Virus record (IMG/VR): IMGVR_UViG_3300042876_000988
Location: 1 to 46,326 of that record
From: a virus
Length of the DNA stretch: 46,326 nucleotides
Reading direction: 5' to 3' (one strand)
A program made the translations under genes and the position numbers. Positions 4,431 to 46,326 of the stretch are shown here, piece after piece; the stretch's first letter is position 1, and each line of letters opens with the position of its first letter. A model generated the notes under the pieces. The model made no database searches. It was not told the origin of the DNA and saw only the letters and a program-made list of their open reading frames with translations.

Positions 4431-6317
4431 TCAGGCCACTTGGGCGGTTCTTACACAGTCCCATTTGGTATAAAAAGCGTTGTATATCAGCCAAACACGT
4501 AGGAATTTACCGGCTACCGTTGTAGTCGGAAGCGCGGTACCGCCGTTGCGGTAGTACGTTCCCCAGGTCAACGCCCTCGCAGTGCCGTTATCCAACAATT
4601 CAAGCACCAGGGTTTGCCCATGGCCCGGAGTCCCGGATGGGTTATTTATCGTGAGTGCCCCCGCCAGACTGGTCGCCGCAACCAGGTCGTAGGCGTCAAC
4701 GTTAGGAGTAATACTGGAAGGGCTTGTGCTGTTCGTTGACCGCGGATTTGAAAGCAGGAAGGGAACACCTGAAAATTTCGGGAACCCGCCATCATTGTAG
4801 ATTTTGTCTGTGACGGTAGTGGGGACACCGCTCGGTATTTCCAGCCCAGCACCTGCCGCCGTTGAAGCCAGTTTGACCGGACCGGTGAAGATCGCGCCCG
4901 CGAGGGCGGCCTCGGACATATCCTCCCAGGCAGTTCCGTTCGATCTCTGAAGTTTCCCAAGATCTGTGTCGAAGTAGAGGTAGCCAGCATTACCGGCTGC
5001 TGCCGCAGGCTTGGCGGCGGTGGTCCCGCGGCCATGGATGGTGGACCAAGACAGCGCGTCGGCTCCGCCGGATTCATGCGCGCTGGCGTGGGCGGAGCCG
5101 GAGCCCCCAGCCTCGGCGACATCCTCCCAGGCGGTTCCGCTGGAACGCTGCAGCTTGCCCAAGGTGGTATCGAAGTAGAGGTAGCCGGTGTTCCCGGCGG
5201 CAGCCGCAGGCTTGGCGGCGGTGGTTCCGCGGCCATGGATGGTGGCCCAGGGCAGCGCGTCGGCTCCACCGGGTTCATGCGCGCTGGCGTGGGCAGAGGG
5301 CGCGAAGGTGGAAGGAACGCCGGACAATTCCCCCCAGGCCACGGTGCCCCAGACTTTATTCCCTTTCCAGACCTGAGTGGAAGTCCCAGCGGTGATGGCG
5401 GCCTCGTAGACGTCGGTGTGGGAATGGGTCGTGGGGGATTTGGCGTCCAGGGCCGCCTGAAGGTCCGTCTGGTCGGACAGCAGGCCTGAGATTGTGCCCC
5501 AGACGGCGGAGCTGGCGCCTCCAGCCTCGGCGACATCCTCCCAGGCGGTTCCGCTGGAACGCTGCAGCTTGCCCAAGGTGGTATCGAAGTAGAGGTAGCC
5601 GGTGTTCCCGGCGGCAGCCGCAGGCTTGGCGGCGGTGGTTCCGCGGCCATGGATGGTGGCCCAGGGCAGCGCGTCGGCTCCACCGGGTTCATGCGCGCTG
5701 GCGTGGGCAGAGGGCGCGAAGGTGGAAGGAACGCCGGACAATTCCCCCCAGGCCACGGTGCCCCAGACTTTATTCCCTTTCCAGACCTGAGTGGAAGTCC
5801 CAGCGGTGATGGCGGCCTCGTAGACGTCGGTGTGGGAATGGGTCGTGGGGGATTTGGCGTCCAGGGCCGCCTGAAGGTCCGTCTGGTCGGACAGCATGCC
5901 TACGATGGCGCCCCATGCGCTGCCGCCTCCACTCGCCAGATCGAAGCTGGGACGGTAATCGATGATGGATGTGATGCCCGTGGCCGAGGTGGCCACCAGG
6001 GCCATGGGAATCTTCCCAGCGGTGAAGCCGGTGGTGTTCTTGCTGACCAGGCCCGCGCTGGTGCGCTCGATGTAGTTGTTGGCGCTGGGGGTGAGGGCCA
6101 GGGTTCCGCCGGCCACCTGCGCGGCAGCTCCGGCAATCCAGGTAACGCCGCCCAGATAGGCGTAGACCAGGCCCCCGGTCCCAAACACGTTCTGCGCGAA
6201 GGCCTTGAGGGCTGCCGCGTCGATGGCAAGTCGGGTATTGTCCTCCCCCACCTTCCCGGGAGCTTCGCCAATCTGGAAGTCGTAGGGAATGCCGAGATAA
6301 GGGGTGTTCTGGCTCAT
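4431..6317 (-). CDS. tail fibre with recent internal duplication
   Basis: 628 residues. The N-terminus (IGEAPGKVGEDNTR, NNYIERTSAGLVSKN) matches the virion-attachment region of phage tail-fibre proteins. A 138-residue unit (SDQTDLQAALDAKSPTTHSH, then STFAPSAHASAHEPGGADAL, then GYLYFDTTLGKLQRSSGTAWEDV) is present twice without any change. A third, shortened and diverged copy follows. The HSH and SAHASAHE(P/S)GGADAL motifs are typical of trimeric fibre shafts. The C-terminal ~150 residues are unique and probably form the receptor-binding tip. The start has an AGGAGA RBS and overlaps the hub stop by four bases (ATGA). Confidence 0.85.
   Translation of the reverse strand: MSQNTPYLGIPYDFQIGEAPGKVGEDNTRLAIDAAALKAFAQNVFGTGGLVYAYLGGVTWIAGAAAQVAGGTLALTPSANNYIERTSAGLVSKNTTGFTAGKIPMALVATSATGITSIIDYRPSFDLASGGGSAWGAIVGMLSDQTDLQAALDAKSPTTHSHTDVYEAAITAGTSTQVWKGNKVWGTVAWGELSGVPSTFAPSAHASAHEPGGADALPWATIHGRGTTAAKPAAAAGNTGYLYFDTTLGKLQRSSGTAWEDVAEAGGASSAVWGTISGLLSDQTDLQAALDAKSPTTHSHTDVYEAAITAGTSTQVWKGNKVWGTVAWGELSGVPSTFAPSAHASAHEPGGADALPWATIHGRGTTAAKPAAAAGNTGYLYFDTTLGKLQRSSGTAWEDVAEAGGSGSAHASAHESGGADALSWSTIHGRGTTAAKPAAAAGNAGYLYFDTDLGKLQRSNGTAWEDMSEAALAGAIFTGPVKLASTAAGAGLEIPSGVPTTVTDKIYNDGGFPKFSGVPFLLSNPRSTNSTSPSSITPNVDAYDLVAATSLAGALTINNPSGTPGHGQTLVLELLDNGTARALTWGTYYRNGGTALPTTTVAGKFLRVWLIYNAFYTKWDCVRTAQVA
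5107..5896. repeat. 414-bp tandem duplication within the fibre gene
   Basis: Bases 5107-5482 are repeated without visible change at 5521-5896, a period of 414 bases (138 codons). A third partial copy lies at about 4912-5106. Identity at third codon positions shows that the duplication is recent or kept uniform by recombination. Confidence 0.93.
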
Positions 6318-14771: not shown

Positions 14772-15076
14772 CAGGCGGTCTCCTGGACGGGCTTGAGGAC
14801 ACCGCAGGCCACGAATGGCGCGGCGTCTTCAGGAGTGGCCTCCACGCGGTCTCCCGCTTCAAGAGGTTCGTCGGCAAAGCCTTCGAACCGCCACTGGACC
14901 TCGTAGGCGGCCAGAATTCCAGCCGGGGCGTCCGGAGGAGGAGCGGAAGTTTCCTCCGGCCCGGGGGTCGGAGGAGGGGCGGAAGTTTCCTCCGGCCCGG
15001 GGGTCGGAGGAGGGGCGGAAGTTTCCTCCGGCCCGGGGGTCGGAGGAGGGGTGGAGTTTCCCTTCGGTTTGGCCAT
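14771..15076 (-). CDS. proline-rich head accessory protein with tandem repeats
   Basis: 101 residues from the ATG at 15074-15076. The N-terminal half is a spacer of three exact 12-residue repeats (PPPTPGPEETSA type). The C-terminal half is a compact domain (AYEVQWRFEGFADEPLEAGD, ending CGVLKPVQETA). It follows the major capsid gene, the place of lambda FI, which is also Ala/Pro-rich and helps packaging; the analogy is positional. The longer open frame upstream overlaps the capsid gene and is a shadow. Confidence 0.65.
   Translation of the reverse strand: MAKPKGNSTPPPTPGPEETSAPPPTPGPEETSAPPPTPGPEETSAPPPDAPAGILAAYEVQWRFEGFADEPLEAGDRVEATPEDAAPFVACGVLKPVQETA
14943..15050. repeat. three tandem 36-bp repeats
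   Basis: Three exact 36-base units (14943-14978, 14979-15014, 15015-15050) encode the proline-rich linker. Repeat number is likely to vary between related phages by slippage. Confidence 0.92.
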
Positions 15077-17805: not shown

Positions 17806-19434
17806 CTACTCCTGGCCTTGGACGGAAGGAAGAGCTTCGTTGTCGGTGCCGTCGGGCGCCGATACCGGGGTGGCCGTCGCCGCGATCGGGGTAGGTTTTC
17901 CCAGGTGAACGTCCAGGGCTTCGATCCGCTGGTCCTCGGTGGCCCTTCGTTCGATCTCGACATCCCAGTCCCGGCCGAACAGGGCGGCGGTCGCCTCGGT
18001 CCGGGTGGAGAAGCCGGCATCCACCGCATCGGACCACGCGGCGATTTCTTTGCCCATGTCGATTTGGCCCAGGGAATCCCCGGTCCATCCGCCTGAGCAG
18101 TAAGCCAGGCGAAGGATCGGGTCATCAAAGAATCCAGGGGCGTCGACCAAGCCGCTGGCCACGCATTCCTCAAGGAAGGCTTCGTAGACGGGCTGGCACA
18201 GGTTGGTAGCCAGCCAAGCGCGGCGGGAGCGGACGAACTTGGCCAGCTCGAGCAGGGCGGCGCGCGCGGCGGAGTAGGAGGCCGTGAAGTGCTTGACCAG
18301 CACCTCGAAGGGAAGTTCCAGAGCTACGCCGATTTGGCGAAGCATGGCCAGCACAAAGGGATCGAAGGCTTGGTTGGGGCGGTTGGGTGAGAAGTTCTCG
18401 ATCTTCTCGCCCGGGTCGAGCTCGAAGGTGGATCCGTACCCCAGTTCGATGGCCTTGCGTGGGGCGGCTGGATTGGAGGAGGCGGGGAGATCGACCTTGG
18501 CCCCGTCCAGCAGGCCGCCTCCGTTGGCGGGATCGCTGGTGACGAAGAGGGTGTACATGCCGGACACCACGGCCGCCCGCAGCTCGCCTGTGGTGTACTC
18601 GCCCAACTCGCGCAGGGTCTCAATCACCGTTGAGAGGTAGGGCACGCCACGGTGCTGGTCGGGGCGCAAAGACACATACAAATGAAGGACGGCAGGGGTC
18701 CCGCGCTTCGTGCGGGCCGGAATTTTCTGGAAATCCTGTTCGCTCATGGCTCGCCGCGAGCCGGGATGGAACTTGGTGATGTGGTAAGCCGAAGGCGCTC
18801 CGTCGGAATTCAGTTCCACGCCCCCGCTGAAGTTGGCTTCTCCTGATTTATCCGGCGGGGTGAGAAGGCGGTCGCTCTCGACCACTTGCAGTTTCAGGCC
18901 CAGGAAATCCCCGGGGCGCTTCTTGTGGGGCAACACCACCAGGGAATCGCCGCTCTCGAGCGTGCTGCGGGTGGCGAGGGATTGGATTTCGTAGAAGTTG
19001 TGGAGCGTGTTGAGGCTGACGGATTTGGATTCGGCCCACAGGCGCCAGAGCCCTTCAACTTTTTTCGCCCAATCCGCCGATTGCTGTTCGTTCCACCCCA
19101 GGAAGGCCCGCTCAGGCTGGCTCCGCAGCATGAGTCCGGTTCCCACGACATTGGAGACGACGGTATTGACGGCGCCCGCGGCCAGGGGATTGTCCCGCAG
19201 CAGGGACCGACTGCGCTCGCGCAGGGTGGGCAGATCATCGAGCGTGTCCGCGTCGGGGTCTCCGCCACGGGTTGCCCATTTGGCGGTCTGGTCCCGATCA
19301 TGGCGGGCGCCGGCCCAGGATCCTGAAATGGCCATCACGCCCATGCGGGCTTTCATCCGCGCCAACTGCGCAGACGGGGAGAACAGACCGACCAGGCGGT
19401 CCATCTTCGTGGCCGTGAGGGTGGGGCGCCGCAT
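17806..19434 (-). CDS. B: portal protein (lambda gpB family)
   Basis: 542 residues. Key stretches are LRERSRSLLRDNPLAAGAVN near residue 75 and SNVVGTGLMLRSQP after it. Further on are VVESDRLLTP, then HLYVSLRPDQHRGVPYLSTV. All are typical of lambda-family portals. It forms the twelve-fold ring through which DNA enters and leaves. Order gpW-like, portal, protease is as in lambda, with four-base overlap at the start. Confidence 0.92.
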   Translation of the reverse strand: MRRPTLTATKMDRLVGLFSPSAQLARMKARMGVMAISGSWAGARHDRDQTAKWATRGGDPDADTLDDLPTLRERSRSLLRDNPLAAGAVNTVVSNVVGTGLMLRSQPERAFLGWNEQQSADWAKKVEGLWRLWAESKSVSLNTLHNFYEIQSLATRSTLESGDSLVVLPHKKRPGDFLGLKLQVVESDRLLTPPDKSGEANFSGGVELNSDGAPSAYHITKFHPGSRRAMSEQDFQKIPARTKRGTPAVLHLYVSLRPDQHRGVPYLSTVIETLRELGEYTTGELRAAVVSGMYTLFVTSDPANGGGLLDGAKVDLPASSNPAAPRKAIELGYGSTFELDPGEKIENFSPNRPNQAFDPFVLAMLRQIGVALELPFEVLVKHFTASYSAARAALLELAKFVRSRRAWLATNLCQPVYEAFLEECVASGLVDAPGFFDDPILRLAYCSGGWTGDSLGQIDMGKEIAAWSDAVDAGFSTRTEATAALFGRDWDVEIERRATEDQRIEALDVHLGKPTPIAATATPVSAPDGTDNEALPSVQGQE

Positions 19435-19679
19435 CAGGCTGGCCCGAAGGAAGGCATGGGCCCGCGAGTGCCACGCTGGGCGCGGCTAAGCTCGCGCTCC
19501 AGACGTTCGATGGTCAAGTTCACGTGCTTGATGTGGGCCCGGCTGACTTCCAGGTCTCCCTTTCGATAGCTCTGTCCCTGGGCGATCGCGGTGCGCGCCT
19601 CATACCAGATGTCGAGTTCGCCTTGGATCGCCACAGCGGTTCGTGCCATGCCGCGAAGGTAGGGCCGGGCCTGCGACAT
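19434..19679 (-). CDS. gpW-like head completion protein
   Basis: 81 residues, helical, ending in a short basic tail. IAQGQSYRKGDLEVSRAHIK and the following LTIERLERELSRAQRG give the helix pair and Arg-rich end expected for gpW-like or DUF6148 proteins. It lies between large terminase and portal, exactly the place of W. Its ATG falls inside the left arm of the 41-bp dyad at 19673-19713, so translation or transcription here may be controlled separately. Confidence 0.72.
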   Translation of the reverse strand: MSQARPYLRGMARTAVAIQGELDIWYEARTAIAQGQSYRKGDLEVSRAHIKHVNLTIERLERELSRAQRGTRGPMPSFGPA

Positions 19680-19713
19680 GGTTTGACGAAACAGTTTCTT
19701 CGAACTATGTCGC
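19673..19713. repeat. 41-bp dyad element, copy 1
   Basis: An imperfect palindrome with 20-base arms around a single A (19693), core GAAACAGTTTC, outer ends GCGACAT and ATGTCGC. It fills the gap between terminase and gpW-like genes. The same element is at 25081-25121 (34 of 41 bases equal, same orientation). Confidence 0.85.
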
Positions 19714-19716
19714 GGG

Positions 19717-21630
19717 CTACTTCTTGAACGGACCTGGGCTTAGCAATCTGCGGCCCTTTGGTGATGTTCCACGGGCTAAGTGTTCAGGATCATCAGCGTT
19801 GCGAATTTCGAGGGCCGCGCCCTTCGCCAGGGATCCAAGGTCTGAATAGCGGATGGGCCCAAGGATGTTTTGCAGAATCCAGAGGCCGGCGTGGGCCATG
19901 TGCATCAGATCCCAGGCTTCGTTTCGGTCGCGGGTCTTGATCCAGCGGGTGCTCACCTTGCGGGTGCGGGGATCGATGCGCTGCTCCAGTTTTTCGGAGG
20001 TGAGCTGGTCAAGGTATTCGTCGGGAACCCAGTCTGGAAGGTGGACATAACGAGGGCCTGGATGCAGCCTCTGCAGGGCTCCCATGGCCTTCTTCTTGGA
20101 GGAATCGGTGGCGATGACGAAGAGCTTCACCCGGGCTTTGCGGGTGGTGCTCTCTTTCGCCATGCCGGGCCTGTCGATGTAATCCTCTCCGACGCAGGCG
20201 AAGCAGCGGCGGGCGAGGGACTGGCGCGGCATGATGAATTCGTAGACGGCGGCCTGGTTGTACCGCGCGTCCACGAGCACGAGGTCCAAGGGCATATGCC
20301 GGCCGCTGGTGGCATGGTGCAGGGGCTGGAGCAACCAGGCATCGAACTCTTCAAATACTTCTGGCTGGCTGGTGTCTCCGTAGAAGGCTCGGTAGTCCAC
20401 GATCCAGGCCTCTTCGCCTTCACCAAAGGCGGTGTGCTTGGCCTCCAAGCGATCTTTCTGCACGTCACAAGTGGTGATGATGACCCCGGCCCCGTTGGGA
20501 ACGCGCCCGCGCTCGTAGGACTCCAACCTGGACTGCAACAGACCTTTTTCCAGGGCATCGCCTTTTTCTTCCCAGGTCTCGGCCAATTTTAGGTTGATGA
20601 AGGTCTTCAATTCGCTGGGACTGGTTTGGGCATCCACCCATTCCTGGGCGAGCTGCTCCCAGTTGTCCTTGACCACGCTATACAGGGAGTTGTTGCGGAA
20701 AGAGCGTACCTTGCGGACCTCGGGATGCTCGTGGATCCAGTCTCCGGCACCGACCATGGGCCGCTTCCAGCGTTCTTCAATGGGGTGGCCGCAATGCTTG
20801 CAGACGTAGAAGGTGCTTCCTGGGATCACCTTCCGCTTGGAATCCAACTCGTACAGCAAGCGATACTGGCCGCCCTCGTCGCGCCACACCAGGGTCTGCA
20901 TTCCGTTGCATTGAGGGCAGGGGACGAAGTACTGCGCCATGCTGCCTTTGAAGTAGTCCTGCTCGGTGGGATCGATTCCCCGAGGCATGGCGGGCGTGCT
21001 GCCCTGGAAGATCACCAGGTCTTCGTAGGTTTCACCGCGGCCCCGGGCGATCTTGCCAGGATCGCCTTCCCCGCCGACATCCACCCGGTAGGCGCTGCGC
21101 TCATCCAGAAGGATCATGCGCGAGCTGTAGGAACGCAGTTCTTTGGGGGCCGTGGCGCTGGCGATGACCAAGTAGGCGCCATTGCGGAAGCGCTTCTTGC
21201 GCACGGTGGACCCGCTGCGCCGGTTGGTGGCCGGGATGGCCAGGCCCGACAGGCTTTCGCAATGATCGATCATGGGCTGGATGCGATCCTTGGCGTACTC
21301 CTCGGCGGTCCCCTGACTGGGCTGTACCATCAGCATTTCCATGGCGTGGACGTCCAGGCCCCAGCCCACCACGGCGTTGAGGATGGTGCTCCAGCCAATC
21401 TGCACGGGCTTGATGTAGATCACCTCGCGCACGTCGGGATCCATCATGCAGTCCATGATCTCGATCTGGTACGGGTCAGGTTCGCAGGGGCCTTTTCGAG
21501 CGCCCATGGTGATCCACAGGTTGGCCCGCGCCCAATCCGATGGCTTGATGATGGCCGGCGGCTCCCACAGCGCCCGCAGGCGTTCATCCATCGCGTCCAG
21601 GGCGTCGAGTTGATCGGGATGGGAAATCAT
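19717..21630 (-). CDS. A: terminase large subunit (gpA family)
   Basis: 637 residues. ATPase motifs: EVIYIKPVQIGWST (atypical Walker A of the gpA family) near residue 75 and MILLDE (Walker B) near 175. A CPQC...CKHC zinc-type pair follows at ~240-280, then the nuclease half (IITTCDVQKDRLE, VLVDARYNQ). It cuts concatemers and pumps DNA into the head. gpA-family enzymes usually make cos ends. The start overlaps the small subunit stop (ATGA). Confidence 0.94.
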   Translation of the reverse strand: MISHPDQLDALDAMDERLRALWEPPAIIKPSDWARANLWITMGARKGPCEPDPYQIEIMDCMMDPDVREVIYIKPVQIGWSTILNAVVGWGLDVHAMEMLMVQPSQGTAEEYAKDRIQPMIDHCESLSGLAIPATNRRSGSTVRKKRFRNGAYLVIASATAPKELRSYSSRMILLDERSAYRVDVGGEGDPGKIARGRGETYEDLVIFQGSTPAMPRGIDPTEQDYFKGSMAQYFVPCPQCNGMQTLVWRDEGGQYRLLYELDSKRKVIPGSTFYVCKHCGHPIEERWKRPMVGAGDWIHEHPEVRKVRSFRNNSLYSVVKDNWEQLAQEWVDAQTSPSELKTFINLKLAETWEEKGDALEKGLLQSRLESYERGRVPNGAGVIITTCDVQKDRLEAKHTAFGEGEEAWIVDYRAFYGDTSQPEVFEEFDAWLLQPLHHATSGRHMPLDLVLVDARYNQAAVYEFIMPRQSLARRCFACVGEDYIDRPGMAKESTTRKARVKLFVIATDSSKKKAMGALQRLHPGPRYVHLPDWVPDEYLDQLTSEKLEQRIDPRTRKVSTRWIKTRDRNEAWDLMHMAHAGLWILQNILGPIRYSDLGSLAKGAALEIRNADDPEHLARGTSPKGRRLLSPGPFKK

Positions 21631-22103
21631 TCCGAGCCCTTGGCCAGAATTCGAAGGGTGCGCTGCACCTGCTCCTCCAAGGCGCGGGTGGATTCTGGGC
21701 CGATCTGGCTGCGCAGGCGGTTGGGGATGCTCAGGATGTGGGTGCGGGCAGCGACGATCAGGCGAGCGGTGCGCTCTTCGAAGGCGGTGATCGGAGCTAC
21801 CTCTTTGCGTTCGGCGGCCAGCTTGATTTCATCGCGTTCGGCAGCCAGGTGCTGGCGGCGGGCCTCGCTCGACGCTATGGGCGGAATTCCAGCCGACTCA
21901 AGGTCGGTTCGCGCGGCGGTCATCAAGGACCGGTATTCACGGTCCCGCCACCACCGGAAGGCCTCAGACCAGCGGTAGTGCAGGCTTTTCCCGGATCCAT
22001 GGCTGGGCAGCGGGGGGTCTTCCTTGCCCCAGTTGCGGACCGTGCGGTCTTCCACTTCGAAAAGCGCGGCAAGCTGGGCCTGGGTTAGTTTTTCAAGGTT
22101 CAC
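21627..22103 (-). CDS. terminase small subunit (Nu1-like)
   Basis: 158 residues from a GTG start. The N-terminus is a winged-helix DNA-binding domain (LTQAQLAALFEVEDRTVRNW) like lambda Nu1. The helical middle (ASSEARRQHLAAERDEIKLA) would dimerise and contact the large subunit. It recognises the packaging site and pairs with the gpA-like subunit just downstream. Confidence 0.88.
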   Translation of the reverse strand: MNLEKLTQAQLAALFEVEDRTVRNWGKEDPPLPSHGSGKSLHYRWSEAFRWWRDREYRSLMTAARTDLESAGIPPIASSEARRQHLAAERDEIKLAAERKEVAPITAFEERTARLIVAARTHILSIPNRLRSQIGPESTRALEEQVQRTLRILAKGSE

Positions 22104-22109
22104 AGGCCC

Positions 22110-22910
22110 TCAGATTCCGTCCGGGATCCCCGAAGTTGATCTGCCACGTCCAGCCCGCAGGAAAAACCGTTTATGGAAGGCCTCCTGGAATGCTGGGGCG
22201 AAGGCCTTTTGCGCGGTTTCAACGAAGTGGAGCATGGCCCTGAGCTTGTAGGCCCTGGCGAAGCTGTAGACCATGCGGATGTCATCCCGGCCCGGGCCGA
22301 TTCGCTGAAAAACCCCACCCATGGGGGCTTTCCGGCTGCTGCGCAGAATGAACGTGCGCTCGCGGCCTTTGATCTGCTCTTTTCCCCCGGTGGTGTGGAA
22401 GGTGGTGCCCTGGTCGTCCTTGCGGGTATAGGTGCGGCGATGGGAGCTCGTGTCCCAAGCAAGCCGGGTCCTGGATTTCTTGAAGCGGAGGGCCTTGAAG
22501 GTGAGTTCCTGCTTGACGACGCCCCCATAGGAGCCACCTTCTCGGGCGGTACCGGTAATGGGTCGAGCCACATGCGCCCCCACGAACGGCTGGCGGGTCT
22601 CGCCGGTTTCCCACTTGGCCAGCAGCAGCCGGTCTTTCCGTTCGATCCCAACCTCGGCCAGGAGTCGGCCCTGCCGCACGTTGGCCCAGGTGAGGATTTT
22701 CACTTGCTGGAGGATGAAGGAGCGTTCTGCCCCGCTCGCGCGCACCACGCGAAGGGTGAATCCCTGCCGGATGACTTGGCGGATCCTGGCTTGGATCTCG
22801 AGGGCGGAATCATTCAAGGCCTGGGCCAAGCTGAAGACGATGTGCTTGACGTTGCTGGCCTGGAGGTTGGCCAGGGCCAGGTCGGGGATGGTGGCGTAGA
22901 GACGGATCAT
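22110..22910 (-). CDS. putative minor tail/virion morphogenesis protein (gpZ-like)
   Basis: 266 residues, basic. AQALNDSALEIQARIRQVIR followed by QGFTLR looks like the N-terminal helix of minor tail protein Z and related virion proteins. RPFVGAHVARPITG and later basic segments are unassigned. A Z-like gene between the lysis module and terminase would be out of its usual place downstream of the portal. The family call is tentative. Confidence 0.5.
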   Translation of the reverse strand: MIRLYATIPDLALANLQASNVKHIVFSLAQALNDSALEIQARIRQVIRQGFTLRVVRASGAERSFILQQVKILTWANVRQGRLLAEVGIERKDRLLLAKWETGETRQPFVGAHVARPITGTAREGGSYGGVVKQELTFKALRFKKSRTRLAWDTSSHRRTYTRKDDQGTTFHTTGGKEQIKGRERTFILRSSRKAPMGGVFQRIGPGRDDIRMVYSFARAYKLRAMLHFVETAQKAFAPAFQEAFHKRFFLRAGRGRSTSGIPDGI

Positions 22911-23266
22911 CGCGGTGGACCGTCCTCCCGAGCCATCAGATCCGCCGGCCTGCGGCCAAGGGATGTGCTTCCAGCCACCGCGGCCAAGAGCTTCCCAAGG
23001 GTTTGGTTCACTTGATCAACGCTGGTGCGTAGGCCTGTGAATTCTTTCTCCAGGCGGTCCAGCGTGGTCTCCAGGCGGACGATCACCTGACCGGTTCGGG
23101 CTTCCTGAGTCTTCAGGGCGGCAATGTCGGATTCGGCTTTGCTGAGGCGCTGCTTGTCCTCGCGGTTGTGGTTCGCCCAGATGTGGGCGAGCAGAGCGAA
23201 CACCAGCAGGATCAGGCCACCAATCAGGCCGCGCATGGCCCAGGTCTCGAAGGTCGCGGGGATCAC
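22907..23266 (-). CDS. membrane protein with coiled coil, lysis module
   Basis: 119 residues. An N-terminal membrane helix (GLIGGLILLVFALLAHIWA, residues ~13-31) is followed by a long heptad-patterned helix (RLETTLDRLEKEFTGLRTSV). The shape resembles XhlA-like or other lysis-associated membrane proteins, although those often have the TM at the other end. It overlaps both neighbours by four bases and is co-transcribed with spanins and endolysin. Confidence 0.6.
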   Translation of the reverse strand: MIPATFETWAMRGLIGGLILLVFALLAHIWANHNREDKQRLSKAESDIAALKTQEARTGQVIVRLETTLDRLEKEFTGLRTSVDQVNQTLGKLLAAVAGSTSLGRRPADLMAREDGPPR

Positions 23267-23565
23267 TTGGGGGTCTCCTTCTTCACGACCTTTGGTGGGT
23301 CTGGTGACCGGTAGGCGTCCAGGGCCGCGGCCTGCCGGTCGCGGAATCCGATTTGCTCGGCAAGATCGGTAAGCGCGGCGGTGAGCATTTCACCCAGGGT
23401 GGCTTCGGGTTTCAGGGTGTGGATGCGCAGCGGGGGCGGGGTGAGGATCGGGGGCGGCGGGCAGGGCGCGGGCACGATGATGGGCTTGCAGCAGGCGACC
23501 ATTGCAAGCGCAAGCGCGGAGAGGGATGCGAGGCCCAGGGAGTTGCGGAAGGAGTTGTTGGTCAT
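23263..23565 (-). CDS. o-spanin lipoprotein (Rz1-like)
   Basis: 100 residues from the ATG at 23563-23565. The signal peptide ends in a lipobox (ALALAMVAC) with a second Cys, then a Pro-rich stretch (CPPPPILTPPPL) typical of Rz1-like proteins. It is expected in the outer membrane, bridging to the i-spanin encoded directly upstream (four-base overlap) to fuse the two membranes at lysis. Its presence shows a diderm host. Confidence 0.85.
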   Translation of the reverse strand: MTNNSFRNSLGLASLSALALAMVACCKPIIVPAPCPPPPILTPPPLRIHTLKPEATLGEMLTAALTDLAEQIGFRDRQAAALDAYRSPDPPKVVKKETPK

Positions 23566-23900
23566 CGGCCGATCTCCTTCGCGTGTTTCCAGAAGAAGGC
23601 CTTGGCTTCTTCGTCGGTGCGGGGCAGATCCTCGCCCATCTGCTGCAGCAGCCAGTCGGTGTGCATCTTGATGTCGTCCATGCGCCGCTGGGCCTGAGCC
23701 TGGGCAGCCTGGGTGGCCTTCGACTCGGCCACGATCTGCTGCTGGGCTAGTTGGGTCTTGGCGAGTTGCAGCTGCAGGGACTTGATCTTCCAGGACAGGA
23801 AGGCGAGGAGCCCCACGAGGGCAAGGGCCACGGCGCCGAAGGCGTACCAGCGGAAGGGGGCGATCTTTCCCATGGCGGTGGCGAAGAGTGCGGGAATCAT
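23562..23900 (-). CDS. i-spanin (Rz-like)
   Basis: 112 residues. One N-terminal membrane helix (WYAFGAVALALVGLLAFLSW, residues ~18-37) and then a Gln/Ala-rich coiled coil (QLQLAKTQLAQQQIVAESKA), the classic Rz shape. It partners the o-spanin next to it. Confidence 0.85.
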   Translation of the reverse strand: MIPALFATAMGKIAPFRWYAFGAVALALVGLLAFLSWKIKSLQLQLAKTQLAQQQIVAESKATQAAQAQAQRRMDDIKMHTDWLLQQMGEDLPRTDEEAKAFFWKHAKEIGR

Positions 23901-24109
23901 TTGGCCTCCGCAAATTTCCCGACCGTGAGGGCGCTGGCGGTGGCCCAGATCACGGTCTTGGTGAGATCCAGGGACTCGGCTGTCTTCTTCTGGTAGGAGA
24001 AGGCCACGGCCATGCCGAGGCCGAACCCGAGCGCCAAGGCGAAGAACTGGCGGCGCGAGCTGGGCCAGGTCTCATCCTCGGAGAAGGTGCGGCGCAGCCA
24101 TTCACGCAT
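23897..24109 (-). CDS. holin-like small membrane protein
   Basis: 70 residues from the ATG at 24107-24109. Two hydrophobic stretches (FFALALGFGLGMAVAF and TKTVIWATASALTVG) separated by a short charged turn resemble a class II holin. It overlaps the endolysin stop by eight bases. Because another multi-TM protein is the first gene of the module, holin and antiholin roles cannot be assigned. Confidence 0.6.
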   Translation of the reverse strand: MREWLRRTFSEDETWPSSRRQFFALALGFGLGMAVAFSYQKKTAESLDLTKTVIWATASALTVGKFAEAK

Positions 24110-24626
24110 GGGGTGCGTCCTTTGCGATCTGGCGATAGACCCAGGGCAGGTGGTTGCGCTCGATGCGTTCAACGTAGCCTTGGGTTTCGCGGGCGTGGTC
24201 GCCTGTCACCGCAGGCAGGCCCACATAAAGCCAGGCCTTACGTTCGGGCGTGTCGATGATGCCGCGCTTTCGCACCACGCGGACCCCGCGGTCGATGTTC
24301 CCTTGGCCGGCGTTGTATCCGGCCTCGGCCTTCTCCTCATCCCCGCGAAACCACGCCAGCAGGCTCCGCATGTAGAAATCCTGGGCACGGATGGACATGC
24401 GGGGATCCAAGGGAGAAGCATCCGGCGGAATAGCCCCGCGCCGAATCATTTCCCGCCAGGTCCCTGGCATGAACTGGGTGAGACCTTGAGCACCAACAGG
24501 GGAGCGGGCGGAGGGGTTGAACCCCGACTCCTGACGCGCTTGCGCCGCCCTTCGCGGGGCTCGCTCCCCAGCCTCTTCCACGAAGAGGCTCCAGAAGGGA
24601 ATGGTGACCAACAGCAGGGCCAGCAT
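24102..24626 (-). CDS. membrane-anchored lytic transglycosylase endolysin
   Basis: 174 residues from the ATG at 24624-24626. The SLT domain shows the catalytic Glu33 in ARQESGFNPSARSPVGAQGL, followed by TQFMPGTW, then AGYNAGQGNID and GYVERI, all typical of Slt/MltE-type transglycosylases. A hydrophobic start (MLALLLVTIPFWSLFV) could be a signal peptide or a signal-anchor-release segment, which would allow export without a large-hole holin. The longer upstream frame is a shadow of the next gene. Confidence 0.88.
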   Translation of the reverse strand: MLALLLVTIPFWSLFVEEAGERAPRRAAQARQESGFNPSARSPVGAQGLTQFMPGTWREMIRRGAIPPDASPLDPRMSIRAQDFYMRSLLAWFRGDEEKAEAGYNAGQGNIDRGVRVVRKRGIIDTPERKAWLYVGLPAVTGDHARETQGYVERIERNHLPWVYRQIAKDAPHA

Positions 24627-25045
24627 CACACGCCAAGCTGCTTGGAGAAGACCTGGGCCGAGGCGATCAGGGCCAGACCAATAAAGACGCCCCAGGCCAA
24701 GGTCTTGGCTGCCTTCACGAGGTCGCTGTCGATGGCGTCCCACCAGAAGGCCCACTTGGCTCCGCGGGTCGCATCGATAGCCTGAACGGTGAGATACCAC
24801 CCAATCATCACCTGCAGCCACGTCCCCCAACTCAGGGGGATGCGCATCAACCAATCATGGGCGGCCATGGGCCCGGCGGTGGTCGGATCCTTGCGGGCGT
24901 GGAAGAAGGCCACCAGCAGAACCACGGCCATCAGGGCGACGGCGAAGGCGCGGAGCTTGGGCCACCAAGCCCGGACTCCGGCCTCGCCGACTTTGAACGC
25001 GGGCTGAAGCCAGGTCTTCCAGAAAGCAGAGATCCAGGCGGGCAT
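24626..25045 (-). CDS. multi-TM membrane protein, first gene of late operon
   Basis: 139 residues with about three hydrophobic segments (LRAFAVALMAVVLLVAFF, LQVMIGWYLTVQAI, LAWGVFIGLALIAS). The start has a near-perfect AAGGAGGTGGTCC leader. As the first gene of a lysis block it is likely a holin or holin regulator. The Trp-rich N-terminus and size are unusual for a small holin, so another membrane role is possible. Confidence 0.65.
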   Translation of the reverse strand: MPAWISAFWKTWLQPAFKVGEAGVRAWWPKLRAFAVALMAVVLLVAFFHARKDPTTAGPMAAHDWLMRIPLSWGTWLQVMIGWYLTVQAIDATRGAKWAFWWDAIDSDLVKAAKTLAWGVFIGLALIASAQVFSKQLGV

Positions 25046-25080
25046 GGACCACCTCCTTCCGACAAGGTCAGGTGGTCAAT

Positions 25081-25121
25081 GCGACATTCTTCAAAGAAAC
25101 AGTTTCTTCAAACTACGTCGC
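25081..25121. repeat. 41-bp dyad element, copy 2 (late promoter region)
   Basis: Same design as 19673-19713: GCGACAT at the left, AAGAAACAGTTTCTT at the centre, GTCGC at the right. It lies 36-76 bases upstream of the first late gene, where an activator or repressor of the late promoter would bind. Confidence 0.85.
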
Positions 25122-38614: not shown

Positions 38615-39385
38615 TCACACCTCCCGCTGGGGCTGGTGCTGGGGACGGATCAGGGCGCCGGGGGCTTCGGCGGCAAGGCGGCGCTGGATGGCCACCATGC
38701 CTTTCCCGGTCAGCAGGGTCTTTGTGTCCAAACGATCGACCTTGTGGCGATCCTCGAAAGCGATCTCCACCACCCGGAAAATCCCATTGTCGATGTACTG
38801 CTGGTAGGGCAGGGTCTTCCCTGGGATCAGGTACTTCCATTCCCGCAGCCACGCCCACAGCCGCCCCGAGCCAGTGCCCAACACCTTGGCGGCCTCCTGG
38901 ATCGAATGGCAGCCGTCGGAATCCGCCACCCGGTCATGGAAAGCGGCCTTGGGCTCCAGGACGGCAATCTCCACAGCTTTGGTTTCCAGTTCCTGCGCCT
39001 GACGGGCGGCCAGGGCCAGTGCCCCGGAAAAGGTCTTAGGAATGTCGAAGTTGCCGTCCACCTGGTAGGCCCCGGTCCTGCGGATCGAGGGCAACACCTC
39101 GTGGGTGACCCAGCGTTTGAAGGATCGGGCGGAAGGCTTGTCGCTGCGCAGGATGAGGGCGAACAGGCCCGCCTCGTTGACGGCCGCCAGGCGCTGCGGA
39201 CCGCCAGGGGTCTGAATCAGAATCAGGTCCTTTTCGTCCTCGTCCAGGCGGCGGGTGTGCTGGCCGGCGTCGCCCTGCAGGCCCAGCGCCTCGCACACGT
39301 CCCGGGCAATCCACCAGGGGCCGCTGGGCTCCACGATCAGGCGGACCGGAAGGGTGTTGAAAGTGAAGGTTTCGACAGGGTTCAC
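38615..39385 (-). CDS. phage antirepressor (Bro-N and KilAC type)
   Basis: 256 residues from GTG with GGAGG. The N-terminus is a Bro-N domain (GPWWIARDVCEALGLQGDAG, DEDEKDLILIQTPGG, VNEAGLFALILRSDKP). The C-terminus (HSIQEAAKVLGTGSGRLWAW, then GIFRVVEI) is the ANT/KilAC type. Antirepressors of this type inactivate CI-like repressors, here probably the one at 44.05 kb. GTGA overlap with the methyltransferase stop. Confidence 0.88.
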   Translation of the reverse strand: MNPVETFTFNTLPVRLIVEPSGPWWIARDVCEALGLQGDAGQHTRRLDEDEKDLILIQTPGGPQRLAAVNEAGLFALILRSDKPSARSFKRWVTHEVLPSIRRTGAYQVDGNFDIPKTFSGALALAARQAQELETKAVEIAVLEPKAAFHDRVADSDGCHSIQEAAKVLGTGSGRLWAWLREWKYLIPGKTLPYQQYIDNGIFRVVEIAFEDRHKVDRLDTKTLLTGKGMVAIQRRLAAEAPGALIRPQHQPQREV

Positions 39386-41037
39386 GCGACCTCCAGCGAG
39401 GGAATGAAAACGTGCGGGCGTTGCACCACCACGGCTTTGATCAGGGCCTTCACGGTGCCGACGGGACAGGCGTTGCCGATCATCTTCACGGTGTCCCGCT
39501 TGGTCAGGCCTTCGAAGCTGAACCACTCCGGGAAGCCCATGGCGCGGGCCAGCTCGCGCGGTTCCAGCATCCGCATGCCGATGTCGGTGATGACGTAGGT
39601 TTCGCCGTCGATCTCAACGGTGACCAGGCTGTGCCGGTCCACGGTGGTCACGGCGTGCAGGGGCTCCGAGGCTTCCTGATGCTGGCCTCCGGTGGAGTAG
39701 TACTGCTGGAGGAAGGCAGCGACCAGGCCGTGCTTCGATCCTCCAGCCACCACCGTCCCCAAGGGGGATTCGATGTCCAGGACCCGCGGCGCCTGGCCCT
39801 TCCGTTCTCCATAGCCGGTCTGGATCAGGGAGGCCGCCACCACCGAATGGTGATCCACGGCCGTCACGGTTCCAATTGGGCCATCCAGCGAGCTTCCGAC
39901 CACCCCGCCGTAGTGCTTGGCCAGGAAGGCAGAAACCAGGGCCGCATGGCCGCCACCGGCGGAAACGGTCGGCAAGGGTGCCTCCACGCTGCCCGCGCTG
40001 GCTTGGATCTGATCCTCGGCGGTTCCGCGCAGACTGACCATGCTGGCGGCCACCAGGGCTGTGTCAGCCTTGGTGGTTCCGGTCCCCATAGGCTCATTGA
40101 AGCCCCGCGGCGCCGACTGACCGGCTCGGCCGCCCACACCCACCAGAGACGGAAGAATGATGGCCTTTTCTCCGCGGGTGGCCGTGGTGATCGTCTTCAA
40201 GGGTTCGTCCACGTCCTCCAGCCGCCCGCCGTGGGTCAGGTTGACGATGAAGGGGCGTCCGTTCACCACGAAGCGCATCACCCCGGCGGCGATCCGGCGG
40301 AGGGTGGCCGCGGCCAAAGGGCGCTTCCGGTCGAAGATCGATGGCACCGGGAGGCTCCAGTCGATGCATTCGGCGGCGGTGCGCCAAGGGGGCAAGGCCG
40401 CGTCGAAAAGCCCGGCCCCTTTTCGGGGATCCCGGTGGGTGGGCTCAGGCCAGACGATAGGCAGGCCATCCCGCACCGCTTGAAGGAAGAACCGCCGGCG
40501 GATGGTGGGGTCGCCATAGTCGGCCGCGCAGAGCACCCGCCATTCCACCTGGTAACCCAGGCCTTGCAGGTCGGCGACGAAGGCGCGGAAGTCCTCGCCT
40601 TTTCGTTCCTTGATAGGCTGTCCAGCCTCATCCAAGGGGCCCCAGTCCTGGAACTCGGGCACGTTCTCCACCAGCAGCACGTCCACGCGGGCCACTCGCA
40701 GCCAGCGGTCCACCACTTCCCAGGCGTGGCTGCGCTGCTGCTCTTCCTTGGGCTTGCCGCCGCGGGCCCGGCTGTGATGGACGCAGCTCGGGGACGCCCA
40801 TAAGAGGTTGATGTGCTCCAGGCCGTAGTCGGCGGCCGTGACGGCAGTGATGTCCTCCTGATGCACCTGGATCCAAGGGAAGTTGCGGCCATGGGTGGCC
40901 ACGGCCAAGTCCCAATGGTTCAAGGCGTGGCTGGTCATGTCCTGGACCGGGATGCCCAACTCCTCAAAGGCTAGGTGTTTGCCCAGGCTTTCGCCGCCGG
41001 CGCCGCAGAACAGGGAGACCGTGGAGGGGTGGTTCAT
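39382..41037 (-). CDS. orphan C5-cytosine DNA methyltransferase with repeat region
   Basis: 551 residues from the ATG with GGAGG seven bases upstream. Motif I SLFCGAGGESLG, catalytic Cys85 in WASPSCVHHSRARG (PSC instead of PCQ), ENV (VENVPEF, residues 124-126) and RRRFFL follow in order. The second half holds about five ~50-residue units of the form PLxTVxxxxxHxLVxAxL, seen in phage Dcm-like enzymes, before the final motifs (GNACPVGTVKALI). No endonuclease gene lies nearby, so it likely shields phage DNA from host restriction. Confidence 0.9.
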   Translation of the reverse strand: MNHPSTVSLFCGAGGESLGKHLAFEELGIPVQDMTSHALNHWDLAVATHGRNFPWIQVHQEDITAVTAADYGLEHINLLWASPSCVHHSRARGGKPKEEQQRSHAWEVVDRWLRVARVDVLLVENVPEFQDWGPLDEAGQPIKERKGEDFRAFVADLQGLGYQVEWRVLCAADYGDPTIRRRFFLQAVRDGLPIVWPEPTHRDPRKGAGLFDAALPPWRTAAECIDWSLPVPSIFDRKRPLAAATLRRIAAGVMRFVVNGRPFIVNLTHGGRLEDVDEPLKTITTATRGEKAIILPSLVGVGGRAGQSAPRGFNEPMGTGTTKADTALVAASMVSLRGTAEDQIQASAGSVEAPLPTVSAGGGHAALVSAFLAKHYGGVVGSSLDGPIGTVTAVDHHSVVAASLIQTGYGERKGQAPRVLDIESPLGTVVAGGSKHGLVAAFLQQYYSTGGQHQEASEPLHAVTTVDRHSLVTVEIDGETYVITDIGMRMLEPRELARAMGFPEWFSFEGLTKRDTVKMIGNACPVGTVKALIKAVVVQRPHVFIPSLEVA

Positions 41038-41375
41038 GCCACTTCCTCCTTCCACTTCTCCAACTCAGAAAGCCCCTCGAAGATCGGCATGGCCTCGTCC
41101 TCGGCGAAATTGCGCTCGGCCACGGCGCCGCGGGACTTGTCCCATCCGGGCAACATCAGCACCGCATCGCAGCGGCTTAGGATGGCGAAGCACTCCTGCA
41201 TGGCCTGGCCCCAGGTCAGGTCCTCGTGGGGGACGATGGTGATGTGGGGGACCACCGGTACCAGACCCAGCGCCCGCACCTTCAGGCCCCATTCGCAGGC
41301 GGCCTTAACGTTGGCGGCGATCTCGTCGTCGGTGCACGAATAGGGGCCCGCGAGGTACACCAGGCGCGCCGTCAT
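41034..41375 (-). CDS. DUF4406 / deoxyribosyltransferase-like protein
   Basis: 113 residues. VYLAGPYSCTDDEIAANVKA, then VVPHITI and CDAVLMLPGWDKSRGAVAER are typical of the DUF4406 branch of the nucleoside 2-deoxyribosyltransferase fold. The fold handles nucleotides, so a nucleotide-handling role is possible. ATGA overlaps on both sides. Confidence 0.85.
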   Translation of the reverse strand: MTARLVYLAGPYSCTDDEIAANVKAACEWGLKVRALGLVPVVPHITIVPHEDLTWGQAMQECFAILSRCDAVLMLPGWDKSRGAVAERNFAEDEAMPIFEGLSELEKWKEEVA

Positions 41376-43282: not shown

Positions 43283-43687
43283 CTAGCCCGCGGCCTTTAC
43301 GGCCGTCCTGGGCACGAATTTGCCGTTCACTTGAATTCCGGCCGGTTCGGCGGGAACCATGCGCTTCTCGATGGCGGCCCGCACGTCCGGCCAGTGGTAC
43401 TTCCGCCGCCGCACCCCGGCGTGGGCGGTGCCGATGGCCAGGGTGTCGATGAAAGACGGGATCACGCCGTCCTCCACCCAGAGCTTGAACTGGGCTTCCA
43501 CGTACATGGCGCCCCGCAGCAGGCGGATCAGGTGCGTCAGATCGCCGTAGCCGATGTAGTAGGGCATGGGCCCGTCCAGGGTCAATTTGCTGCGGCGGGT
43601 CTTCACCCTCTGGTCAGGGGGCAGGGCAGGGCGCCCGGGCCGGCGTTTGGGGCCAGGGGCGGCGTTGGGTACGGCGTCCTTGTGCAT
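43283..43687 (-). CDS. first early gene, Cox/excisionase-like DNA-binding protein
   Basis: 134 residues from the ATG at 43685-43687 with AAGGA upstream. Basic N-terminus (GPKRRPGRPALPP, AT-hook-like), then a winged-HTH-like part (LWVEDGVIPSFIDTLAIGTA, RRRKYHWPDVRAAIEKRM) in the manner of Cox-type excisionases and repressors. It is the first gene after the immunity region, as cox or cro would be. No direct proof of function. Confidence 0.62.
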   Translation of the reverse strand: MHKDAVPNAAPGPKRRPGRPALPPDQRVKTRRSKLTLDGPMPYYIGYGDLTHLIRLLRGAMYVEAQFKLWVEDGVIPSFIDTLAIGTAHAGVRRRKYHWPDVRAAIEKRMVPAEPAGIQVNGKFVPRTAVKAAG

Positions 43688-44044
43688 GCAGACATCCTTT
43701 TTGTGGGTTGCAGGGAACACCAGTTGTGAGCCCCTACAATTTCGGGTTGCGAAATATCTTGAAATACTCTAAATTGTGGATGCGACGATCCAGGCCCTCA
43801 CATCCGCGGGGCCGGGTTGGAAAAAACAGGATGAAAGAGAGGGTTACGAGTGCGCCCGAGCGTTAGAACTGTGCCCAGAGGTAAGACCTGTTCCGTCCCT
43901 CCAGGGGGCTCCTGGTGATCTCAACATCTGGGGTCATGGGCGGCGTCCGGGGGGAGAGTCGGGCAAGACTTGGTGCCCTCATAGTTTCGGCTCTGAATTA
44001 TTGTGAGTCAAGGCCTGGTGCTCATTATTTTTGTGAGTGTTTTT
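43688..44044. promoter_or_regulatory. immunity/operator region between divergent promoters
   Basis: About 355 bases, AT-rich at 43730-43780. ATTTCG-GGTTG-CGAAAT (43739-43755) lies inside a larger ACAATTT/AAATTGT pair (43736-43742, 43771-43777). TTGTGAG occurs near 43724, 44001 and 44030. The leftward early promoter is probably near 43740-43780. The rightward frame at 43776-44006 has no RBS and is not counted. Confidence 0.65.
44001..44029 (+). promoter_or_regulatory. repressor gene promoter
   Basis: TTGTGA (44001-44006) then ATTATT (44024-44029) with 17-base spacing, about 15 bases before the repressor ATG. TTGTGAGT copies overlap both ends and would allow self-control. Confidence 0.6.
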
Positions 44045-44509
44045 ATGAATGAAAATGAGGGCTACCGGGTTAGAACGGCCAGGGAAAAAAAAGGCATGAC
44101 GCAGGTTAAAATGGCCCAAGCCATGGGTATCCATCCCAATACGATCAGCAACTGGGAAACCGAAAAGACCCCACTTCGAGGCGCCAACCGATTGGCCGTG
44201 GCCAACCTCTTGGAGGTAAGCGTCGAATACTTGCGAACCGGGGTTGGGTCACCAGAGGCGCCTGATCAACCCTATGTGTTTCAGCCCAGAGCAGATGACC
44301 AGGTGGCCGAATCTTGGGCCCGCGTCACCACCGACACCCCGACGGTCGGGAAGGCGATCGGGGTATTGATGCGCGCCCTGCGGAGGCGAGGCCTGGACCT
44401 GGACGATGCGCGGGCTAGTCGAGTTGTGTTGGCGATGGTTAGGCGGTCTGAAGAGACAGGGCAAGAACCAAATGAAGATTGGGCCATTGAAGAAGTGATG
44501 AAACCATAG
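44045..44509 (+). CDS. XRE-family phage repressor
   Basis: 154 residues. Typical Cro/CI HTH at residues ~6-60: YRVRTAREKKGMTQVKMAQA, MGIHPNTISNWETEKTPLRG. It lacks a LexA/S24-type peptidase domain, so induction is not by RecA-driven self-cleavage; an antirepressor (38.6 kb) fits. The ATG at 44045 lies about 15 bases after the promoter with no clear SD. It is transcribed away from the early operon. Confidence 0.87.
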   Translation: MNENEGYRVRTAREKKGMTQVKMAQAMGIHPNTISNWETEKTPLRGANRLAVANLLEVSVEYLRTGVGSPEAPDQPYVFQPRADDQVAESWARVTTDTPTVGKAIGVLMRALRRRGLDLDDARASRVVLAMVRRSEETGQEPNEDWAIEEVMKP

Positions 44510-45052: not shown

Positions 45053-45070
45053 TTGTGGGTATGTAAATCC

Positions 45071-46264
45071 ATGCGCGGCGGACTCTACCGAAATCCTGGC
45101 GGCAAGGTTTGGCTCTTCGAGCTGCGCTGGCGCGGCAAGAAGCGCAAGGGCAGCACCATGCACGAAAGCCGGCCTGCGGCCGAGAAGTGGCTGGCCAAGA
45201 AGAAGAAGGACTGGGCGGATGAAGAGGTTGGCTTGTACGAGGGCCCGCCCATCACCCTCGCCGATGCCTTCGCCGAGTGGGACCGCCTGCAGAAGGGCCA
45301 GGTGGCGGCGCTCTACCGCGTGAACATGCGCTGCGCCGTCCATGTGCATGCGGCCGCCTACCTGGACCGCCCTCTGGCGGAGCTGGACAACAAGGCCATC
45401 GAAGAGATCCGCGTCGCCTACCTGGCCACGCCCGGAAAAGGCTACCGCCGCGGCCAGGACTGGGAGGCCGAGCGCGCGCACACCCCGGGTGGCGCCAATG
45501 GCGTCGTGAAGAACCTGAGCGCGCTGGTGGGCTGGTGCCTCAAGAAAGGACTCATCAAGGCCCGGCCCTTCACCGGCGGCCAGCGCAAGGCCCAAGAGAA
45601 GGCCAAAGCCATCCTCTGGCCCGAGCAGGTCCAGCCGCTCCTCGCCGTCGCCGACAAGGGAGGCAAGGAATGGGCCTCGCCGAAACCGCGCCCAGTCCCT
45701 GACAGCGCGACCGCCATCCGCTTGATGGTCGGATTAGGTCTGCGGGAAACCGAGGCCTTGAACGCGCGCTGGGAATGGCTCCAGTGCGGCGTCTACACCG
45801 TGGGGAAAACGAAGAATCGAAAGCTCCGTCGCATAGAAGTACCGGACTGGCTGCAGCAGCACCTTGAAGTACTACGCGCCGCCGCCGGCAGTCCCAACAG
45901 CGGCCTGATCATCCCCGCCAGGGAAGACGAGGAGGGGAACCAATTTCCTCACCACAAGACTTTCACCCAGAAACCTGTTGAGCGCTGTGGCCGATCCATC
46001 AAGATCCTGGGCCTGACGCCCCACTGCCTGCGGGCCACCTTCGCCACCACCCACTTTGAAGTCGGCACCACCATTTCCCAAATCCAGCTCATGCTGGGAC
46101 ACAAAGACCCGTCCACCACCATGAAGTACATCCACCAGCGCCCCAAAGGCCAAGCCCAAGCCCAGGAAGCCGCAGCCAAAGCCATGGGTTTCCTCAGCCG
46201 CCCCCATACTGCCCCTTCAGCAAAACCCAAAAAGAAGCCAAGTCGAACCAAAAAAGCAGTTTAA
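45071..46264 (+). CDS. int: tyrosine integrase
   Basis: 397 residues from the ATG at 45071; a TTG at 45053 is possible and neither has a strong SD. N-terminal arm-binding domain (GGLYRNPGGKVWLFELRWRG), core-binding domain (~60-160) and catalytic domain with GLRETEALNARW (Arg), KNRKLRRIEV (Lys), HCLRATFATTH (His, Arg), GHKDPSTTMKYIH (His, Tyr). It ends 15 bases before the right att core, so it serves the tRNA-Gly site. Basic Lys-rich C-terminus. Confidence 0.93.
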   Translation: MRGGLYRNPGGKVWLFELRWRGKKRKGSTMHESRPAAEKWLAKKKKDWADEEVGLYEGPPITLADAFAEWDRLQKGQVAALYRVNMRCAVHVHAAAYLDRPLAELDNKAIEEIRVAYLATPGKGYRRGQDWEAERAHTPGGANGVVKNLSALVGWCLKKGLIKARPFTGGQRKAQEKAKAILWPEQVQPLLAVADKGGKEWASPKPRPVPDSATAIRLMVGLGLRETEALNARWEWLQCGVYTVGKTKNRKLRRIEVPDWLQQHLEVLRAAAGSPNSGLIIPAREDEEGNQFPHHKTFTQKPVERCGRSIKILGLTPHCLRATFATTHFEVGTTISQIQLMLGHKDPSTTMKYIHQRPKGQAQAQEAAAKAMGFLSRPHTAPSAKPKKKPSRTKKAV

Positions 46265-46279
46265 AAGGCAAGATGTACC

Positions 46280-46326
46280 CTTCCCAAGCTGAACGTCGTC
46301 GGTTCGATCCCGATCGCCCGCTCCAA
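46280..46326 (+). repeat. attR: attR core repeat (right prophage end)
   Basis: Exact copy of 1-47. Here it is a tRNA-Gly 3' fragment not joined to a 5' half, as expected for the junction without the intact tRNA. The window stops at its end. Confidence 0.93.

Follow-up and report, generated by a model that had tools for sequence, protein, structure and literature searches.

Paired dyads before two late gene blocks of a probable Holophagaceae prophage are putative sites of a Mor/C-family activator

Introduction

Phage lambda has one late promoter, with Q antitermination. For phage Mu, excerpts of the published accounts describe a Mor dimer as binding a dyad with its centre at −43.5 and so replacing the −35 element (PMC4390567), C as binding related dyads at Plys, PI, PP and Pmom (PMC4287176), and the late promoters as carrying an activator site upstream of −35 (PMC4461284). 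Here we analyze a 46,326-nt stretch of viral DNA (the window; positions 1 to 46,326 of IMG/VR virus record IMGVR_UViG_3300042876_000988) in which two related 41-bp dyads, at 19673-19713 and 25081-25121, bracket a lysis and terminase gene block. The initial annotation had read the pair either as regulatory sites, with a Mor-like protein among the candidates to bind them, or as recombination linkers. We find that the dyads are likely to be binding sites of the window's Mor/C-family activator (31684..32115, minus strand) at two predicted late promoters, one for the lysis/terminase operon and one for gpW and the head/tail operon. The support for this activator-site reading is good, as the sites hold the same two positions in related phages and lie at a Mor/C-type distance from a −10-like hexamer; most likely, a single activator binding both sites would switch on the lysis/packaging and head/tail genes together.

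Results

The dyads are as the initial annotation had described them: on recomputation they share 34 of 41 bases and lie in the same orientation 5,408 bp apart, each with 20-1-20 symmetry, the symmetric pairs numbering 17 of 20 at 19673-19713 and 15 of 20 at 25081-25121. Odd-centred 41-mers with at least 15/20 symmetry occur twice in the window, against a mean of 0.54 per Markov-1 shuffle (100 shuffles), and no two shuffled dyads agree at more than 25/41 bases (100 Markov-1 shuffles), compared with 34/41 for the real pair; lone 15/20 dyads arise by chance, and two dyads with 34/41 common bases do not. Nowhere else in the window is either dyad matched at more than 22/41, and the outer half-arm RTGTCGC taken alone shows no enrichment there (11 matches, 12.3 expected). 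A repeated-dyad search of the window returned 14 pairs, five of which, among the matches listed, are coding repeats.

Late genes here are read from the minus strand. The dyad that precedes the first of them (24626..25045, minus strand, 139 aa, no family match) is thus 25081-25121, and 19673-19713 is the one between the large terminase subunit, TerL (19717..21630, minus strand, phrog_15 E=4.6e-172), and gpW. These are the two places that the initial annotation had named, with the assignment of coordinates now fixed by strand. Its statement that the dyad in the terminase gap includes the gpW start codon probably does not hold. The longest gpW open reading frame begins at ATG 19679, inside the dyad, and its second Met is ATG 19649; in a gpW alignment, nothing in five relatives corresponds to the first ten residues, which suggests that ATG 19649 is the true start. 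With the start of the gpW-like head-tail adaptor moved from 19679 to 19649 by that alignment (19434..19649, minus strand, phrog_118 E=3.4e-09), the dyad would lie wholly upstream of the gene. A perfect 7-7-7 inverted repeat, CGTGTTC-N7-GAACACG, is found at 25156-25176, upstream of the 25081 dyad; it is the sole match in the window even at three mismatches and could be another regulator's operator.

The search of related prophages that the initial annotation had proposed shows the arrangement to be conserved. A shorter related dyad, TTTGSCGAAACGTTTCGSCAAA, occurs in three related phages, two in Holophagaceae genomes (G068 and G071) and one on an IMG/VR contig (L140), and in all three one copy precedes the first late gene and another separates terminase from gpW, as in the window. 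Reading the TerL-gpW junctions of the relatives gave a 22-bp motif, TTTGSCGAAAC(N)GTTTCGSCAAA. The G068 phage (L098) has three sites, at 8389, 13445 and 13558, scoring 20, 20 and 19 of 22, and the G071 phage (L103) also three, at 10549, 4969 and 4858, scoring 21, 20 and 18 of 22; L140, the one contig returned by an IMG/VR pattern scan, carries two perfect palindromes before the first late gene and gpW. The lysis-site/gpW-site pairs (13445/8389 in L098, 4969/10549 in L103 and 495/5933 in L140) are 5,056, 5,580 and 5,438 bp apart, compared with 5,408 bp in the window. A third, weaker site lies 113 bp (L098:13558-13579) and 111 bp (L103:4858-4879) upstream of the first-late-gene site; a second activator dimer, looping or another promoter are candidate roles, and the window has no equivalent at the scan threshold.

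A repeated-dyad search blind to the motif, covering 15 sources (L137-L139 left out), returned the late-gene sites as the top pair in L098, L103 and L140, one other pair in L128 (19/22, at 12466 and 12610), and no pairs in L099, L130, L102, L135 or L136. Pairs in L100/L129 (overlapping), L133 and L134, with 18 identical bases, were judged to be chance. Across 77 Holophagaceae genomes, eight of which encode TerL homologues, the 22-bp motif at up to two mismatches is found at eight places, five of them in the late control regions of the two prophages, versus four matches for a reversed control pattern; at up to one mismatch, it occurs in 2 of 396 genomes of the phylum. The remaining phage loci, 757,554 bases in all, contain no match above 17/22. 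The exact 41-bp pattern has no match in viral or genome contigs, a looser pattern of one and a half arms none in viral contigs, and single-protein searches with the window's Mor and TerL found no relatives among the viral contigs. In the phage collection, TerL matches 735 records, all below 60% identity (29.7-32.3% for the 25 among the matches listed). A scan with a TerL alignment yielded 80 loci, the best of which, L008 (41%), has neither the 41-bp dyad nor a close match. Half-motif scans of viral contigs gave 64 and at least 118 stretches, 80 of these 118 being kept as loci; among the 147 loci scanned (L140-L286, with L141-L143 from the phylum search), only L140 has two sites beside late genes. 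In four dyad-less loci (L099, L100, L008 and L104), additional DNA sets TerL and portal about 1.2-2.7 kb apart, and cargo may enter at this junction.

Conservation among the 20 half-sites from the four phages is concentrated in the blocks GTTTC and AAA. The initial annotation's remark that the left arms have diverged more applies to the window's own pair, in which five of the seven differences on the plus strand fall in the left arm. The GTTTC repeats stand 0-1 bp apart in all four phages, in a core of 22-23 bp that is extended to 41 bp in the window, where alone ATGTCGC is kept and the dyads carry outer arms GCGACAT/ATGTCGC (at 25081..25121, an inner GAAACAGTTTC core with GCGACAT/ACGTCGC arms). 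The window's four half-sites all agree at positions 14 (A) and 16-20 (GTCGC), at which the other 16 show no conservation. The kinship of the window's sites with those of the relatives rests on position, on both arms and on the common GTTTC and AAA blocks, and not on score alone.

The spacing between dyad and gene points to activator-dependent promoters. Measured to the ATG rather than to a transcription start, the dyad centre lies 44.0 (window), 44.5 (G068), 43.5 (G071) and 43.5 bp (L140) before gpW, and 43.5 (G068), 42.5 (G071), 56.0 (window) and 54.5 bp (L140) before the first late gene; that is, 42.5-44.5 bp in six of eight promoters and 54.5-56 bp in two, and these two have a Shine-Dalgarno sequence, in the window AAGGAGG at 25052..25058 (minus strand, a sequence reading) before ATG 25045. 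By eye, and after the fact, a −10-like nAnnnT hexamer starts 30.5-32 bp past the dyad centre in all eight (TACCTT, CAATCT, GACTCT, CATTCT, GATCCT, GACTCT, GACCTT and CACCAT). The window's putative hexamers are GACCTT at 25064..25069 (minus strand), 32 bp from the dyad centre, and TACCTT at 19656..19661 (minus strand), 7 bp before ATG 19649. No sigma-70-type (TTGACA/TATAAT) promoter was found in 19400-25400; the lack of a −35 hexamer with an apparently weak −10 is what is expected of a Mor/C-activated promoter.

The candidate activator is a 143-aa protein matching PF08765 (E=1.1e-11) and phrog_532, late transcriptional activator. Mor-family proteins are encoded in three of the four site-bearing phages (window, G068 and G071) and in 10 of the 77 Holophagaceae genomes, both motif genomes included; a class-wide search found the same 10 in 93 genomes and none new. 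In the G068 and G071 phages, each Mor gene precedes the late block and shares its strand, and the best named phage match of the G071 protein is annotated as a late regulator C protein; the window's Mor itself has no match among phage records. The motif appears to follow Mor rather than the neighbouring TerL, because the G068 and G071 phages share Mor (71% identical) and motif despite TerLs that are only 30% identical, while the window combines a G068-type TerL (51%) with a divergent Mor (19%) and a divergent dyad. The G053b phage (L100, L129), with related TerL, portal, protease and recombinase, has no Mor-family match and no motif. Other Mor-bearing loci (L099, L130, L102 and L133-L139) show no motif match above 15/22.

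At 143 aa, the window's Mor is longer than those of G068 (103) and G071 (106). Its last 49 aa match PF08765 positions 62-94, the helix-turn-helix (HTH) part of Mor, at E=0.011, below the cut-off, and match the HTH of the G068 and G071 proteins in BLASTP at E=4e-05 and 6e-04, each a single comparison; the HTH is probably duplicated in this protein. A structure prediction is of low confidence (mean pLDDT 45.5). Titles and abstract openings in the literature searched mention neither Holophagaceae phage late promoters nor a Mor with two HTHs.

Discussion

We propose that a Mor dimer, on a dyad whose centre precedes the start by about 43-44 bp, would take the place of the missing −35 element and bring RNA polymerase to the weak −10-like hexamer. 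The gpW transcript would then start at or next to its ATG and so be leaderless, and for the first late gene about 11-12 nt would separate the transcript start from the ATG, with the Shine-Dalgarno sequence at the extreme 5′ end. A more tentative extension, which we find plausible but would not yet favour, is that the HTH-duplicated Mor is matched by doubled 41-bp operators, one HTH per subunit reading the inner GTTTC/AAA blocks and the extra one the outer ATGTCGC arms. A probable two-HTH Mor and outer-arm dyads are here correlated in a single phage. If the extension is correct, activator and both late promoters would have changed together, and the resulting late switch would show no cross-reaction with sister prophages in which a one-HTH Mor is paired with 22-bp dyads.

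Several findings weigh against assigning the dyads to Mor. The sites are found in four phages only. The initial annotation held that dyads missing from relatives, or randomly placed in them, would speak against its proposal; this is not so for the G068, G071 and L140 phages, but the TerL relatives L099, L100, L102, L104 and L008 have no site in a motif scan, nor do the short contigs L101 and L092. The phages of G053a and G077, with divergent Mors 20-23% identical to that of G068, have no such motif. In L140, Mor is not seen, in a record that starts about 500 bp before the first site. The two sites of the window match the relatives' motif at just 18 and 16 of 22 positions, close to the background maximum of 17, and their core is 23 bp rather than 22, a one-base difference in spacing. 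The 5-6-5, 16-bp layout of the Mu operator is not that of these dyads. Finally, the presence profile of a CI-like HTH_3 protein is nearly the same as that of Mor.

This last point bears on the idea that the dyads are operators through which the CI-like repressor (44003-44509), or another phage repressor, silences the late promoters in the prophage. An HTH_3 protein is present in the window, with homologues in the G068 and G071 phages, and dyads at promoters are typical operators. We nevertheless hold this idea to be quite improbable: the repressor's own control region is without a site (neither window 43500-44300 nor the stretches scanned around its homologues in L127 and L128 match beyond 13/22), and a dyad centred at about −44 with no −35 element favours an activator. 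That some other factor, a host regulator or an unrecognized phage protein, activates through the dyads is unlikely too. The phage proteins are characterized only in part, and L140 lacks a visible Mor; the scarcity of the motif in the phylum, however, is not that of a host regulon, and outside the late regions of the two prophages only three scattered places remain in the family genomes. Still less probable, at the edge of what we would entertain, is an RNA hairpin or terminator between transcription units. Long inverted repeats in intergenic gaps invite this reading, yet the dyads are not among the seven terminator-like matches in 19400-25400 and have no Rfam match, the hairpin loop would be 0-1 nt, and it is the half-site sequence that is conserved, paired positions often being non-complementary in relatives (symmetry 6-9 of 11 at six sites).

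The linker reading of the initial annotation, in which the 5.4-kb cassette is swapped as a unit, finds no support, and we regard recombination sites or homology linkers, serving either the internal tyrosine recombinase or an exchange of modules, as very improbable. A second tyrosine recombinase does adjoin Mor, and protein identity shifts near the TerL-gpW junction. Between the G068 and G071 phages, identities are 67-77% for the lysis genes, 42% for the small terminase subunit (TerS), 30% for TerL, 63% for gpW and 46% for portal; the protein identities of the four phages form a mosaic, with apparent breaks near the TerL-gpW site and also within the cassette. Because lysis genes at 67-77% and TerL at 30% lie in the same cassette, it does not seem to move as one unit. 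Recombinase and sites are moreover mismatched: the stretches searched of the G071 phage, which has three sites, contain no homologue of the recombinase, and in L100 and L102 the recombinase is encoded but sites are absent. Excision between direct-repeat dyads would also delete the terminase. Passive use of the dyads as homology anchors may occur. All told, internal recombinase, CI-like repressor, RNA hairpin and cassette-swap linker fit the evidence worse than the Mor activator.

After 25081-25121 come, on the minus strand, the first late gene, an SLT-domain endolysin/transglycosylase (24102..24638, minus strand; PF01464 E=2.6e-17; phrog_669 endolysin; frame as scanned, start approximate), spanin-like genes, TerS (21627..22103, minus strand, phrog_57 E=4.3e-19) and TerL; the portal protein (17806..19434, minus strand, phrog_21 E=1.6e-109) abuts gpW. 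Also in the late region are 36-bp tandem repeats, about four copies, at 14897-15076, and in the tail-region gene 4431-6317 are 300-nt direct repeats (4890-5804, two 99% identical, 414 bp apart). The window has identical 47-bp ends (1-47 and 46280-46326) which correspond to the 3′ portion of a tRNA-Gly(CCC) gene and are the att cores of the prophage. Their pattern matched a single contig in the genome collection, a Holophagaceae metagenome-assembled genome, inside a tRNA-Gly(ccc) gene, and the window is probably a Holophagaceae prophage. Its integrase (45053-46264) is separate from the internal recombinase (30650-31684), which directly follows the Mor-family gene, its start overlapping the end of mor, and has homologues in the G068, G053b and G077 phages, each placed upstream of the late block. 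A C-5 cytosine methylase (39382-41055) is 66-69% identical to the G068 and G071 versions, above the conservation of the structural genes. The Aca2/YdiL-like family PF08965 is associated with anti-CRISPR operons, and the protein at 28090-29073 has a borderline match to its HTH (E=8.8e-05, just under the cut-off).

These predictions define a testable late-gene circuit for prophages of Holophagaceae (Acidobacteriota). The putative leaderless gpW promoter, whose dyad precedes the start codon by 43.5-44.5 bp, would allow transcription starts to be predicted to nearly a single base, and the pairing of single-HTH Mor with a 22-bp dyad, versus a probable double-HTH Mor with a 41-bp dyad, would be a natural experiment on joint change of activator and promoter specificity. 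Mor/C-type activation, known from transposable Mu, would be extended to tRNA-integrating prophages with a lambda-type head module.

The likeness to Mu Pm lies in a PF08765 activator, the lack of a −35 element, a weak −10, and a dyad centred at −43.5 from the start in Mu and 42.5-44.5 bp before the ATG in six promoters here. The dyads themselves differ, being 16 bp with 5-bp inverted repeats and a 6-bp spacer in Mu and 22-23 bp (41 in the window) with GTTTC repeats 0-1 bp apart here, and Pm drives a middle operon, whereas the present sites precede late operons. Here, as in Mu with its C protein, a single activator of the Mor/C type goes with several related dyads at late promoters, Plys being one of them in Mu. 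The present locus differs in the number of late sites (two, against four in Mu), in belonging to a prophage that integrates in a tRNA gene and not to a transposable phage, in a gpW promoter that looks leaderless and, in the window, in an activator with a probable extra HTH. The head module (TerL, gpW, portal and head maturation protease) is of the lambda type, yet, unlike lambda with its single late promoter, these phages carry separate activator-type sites before two late blocks.

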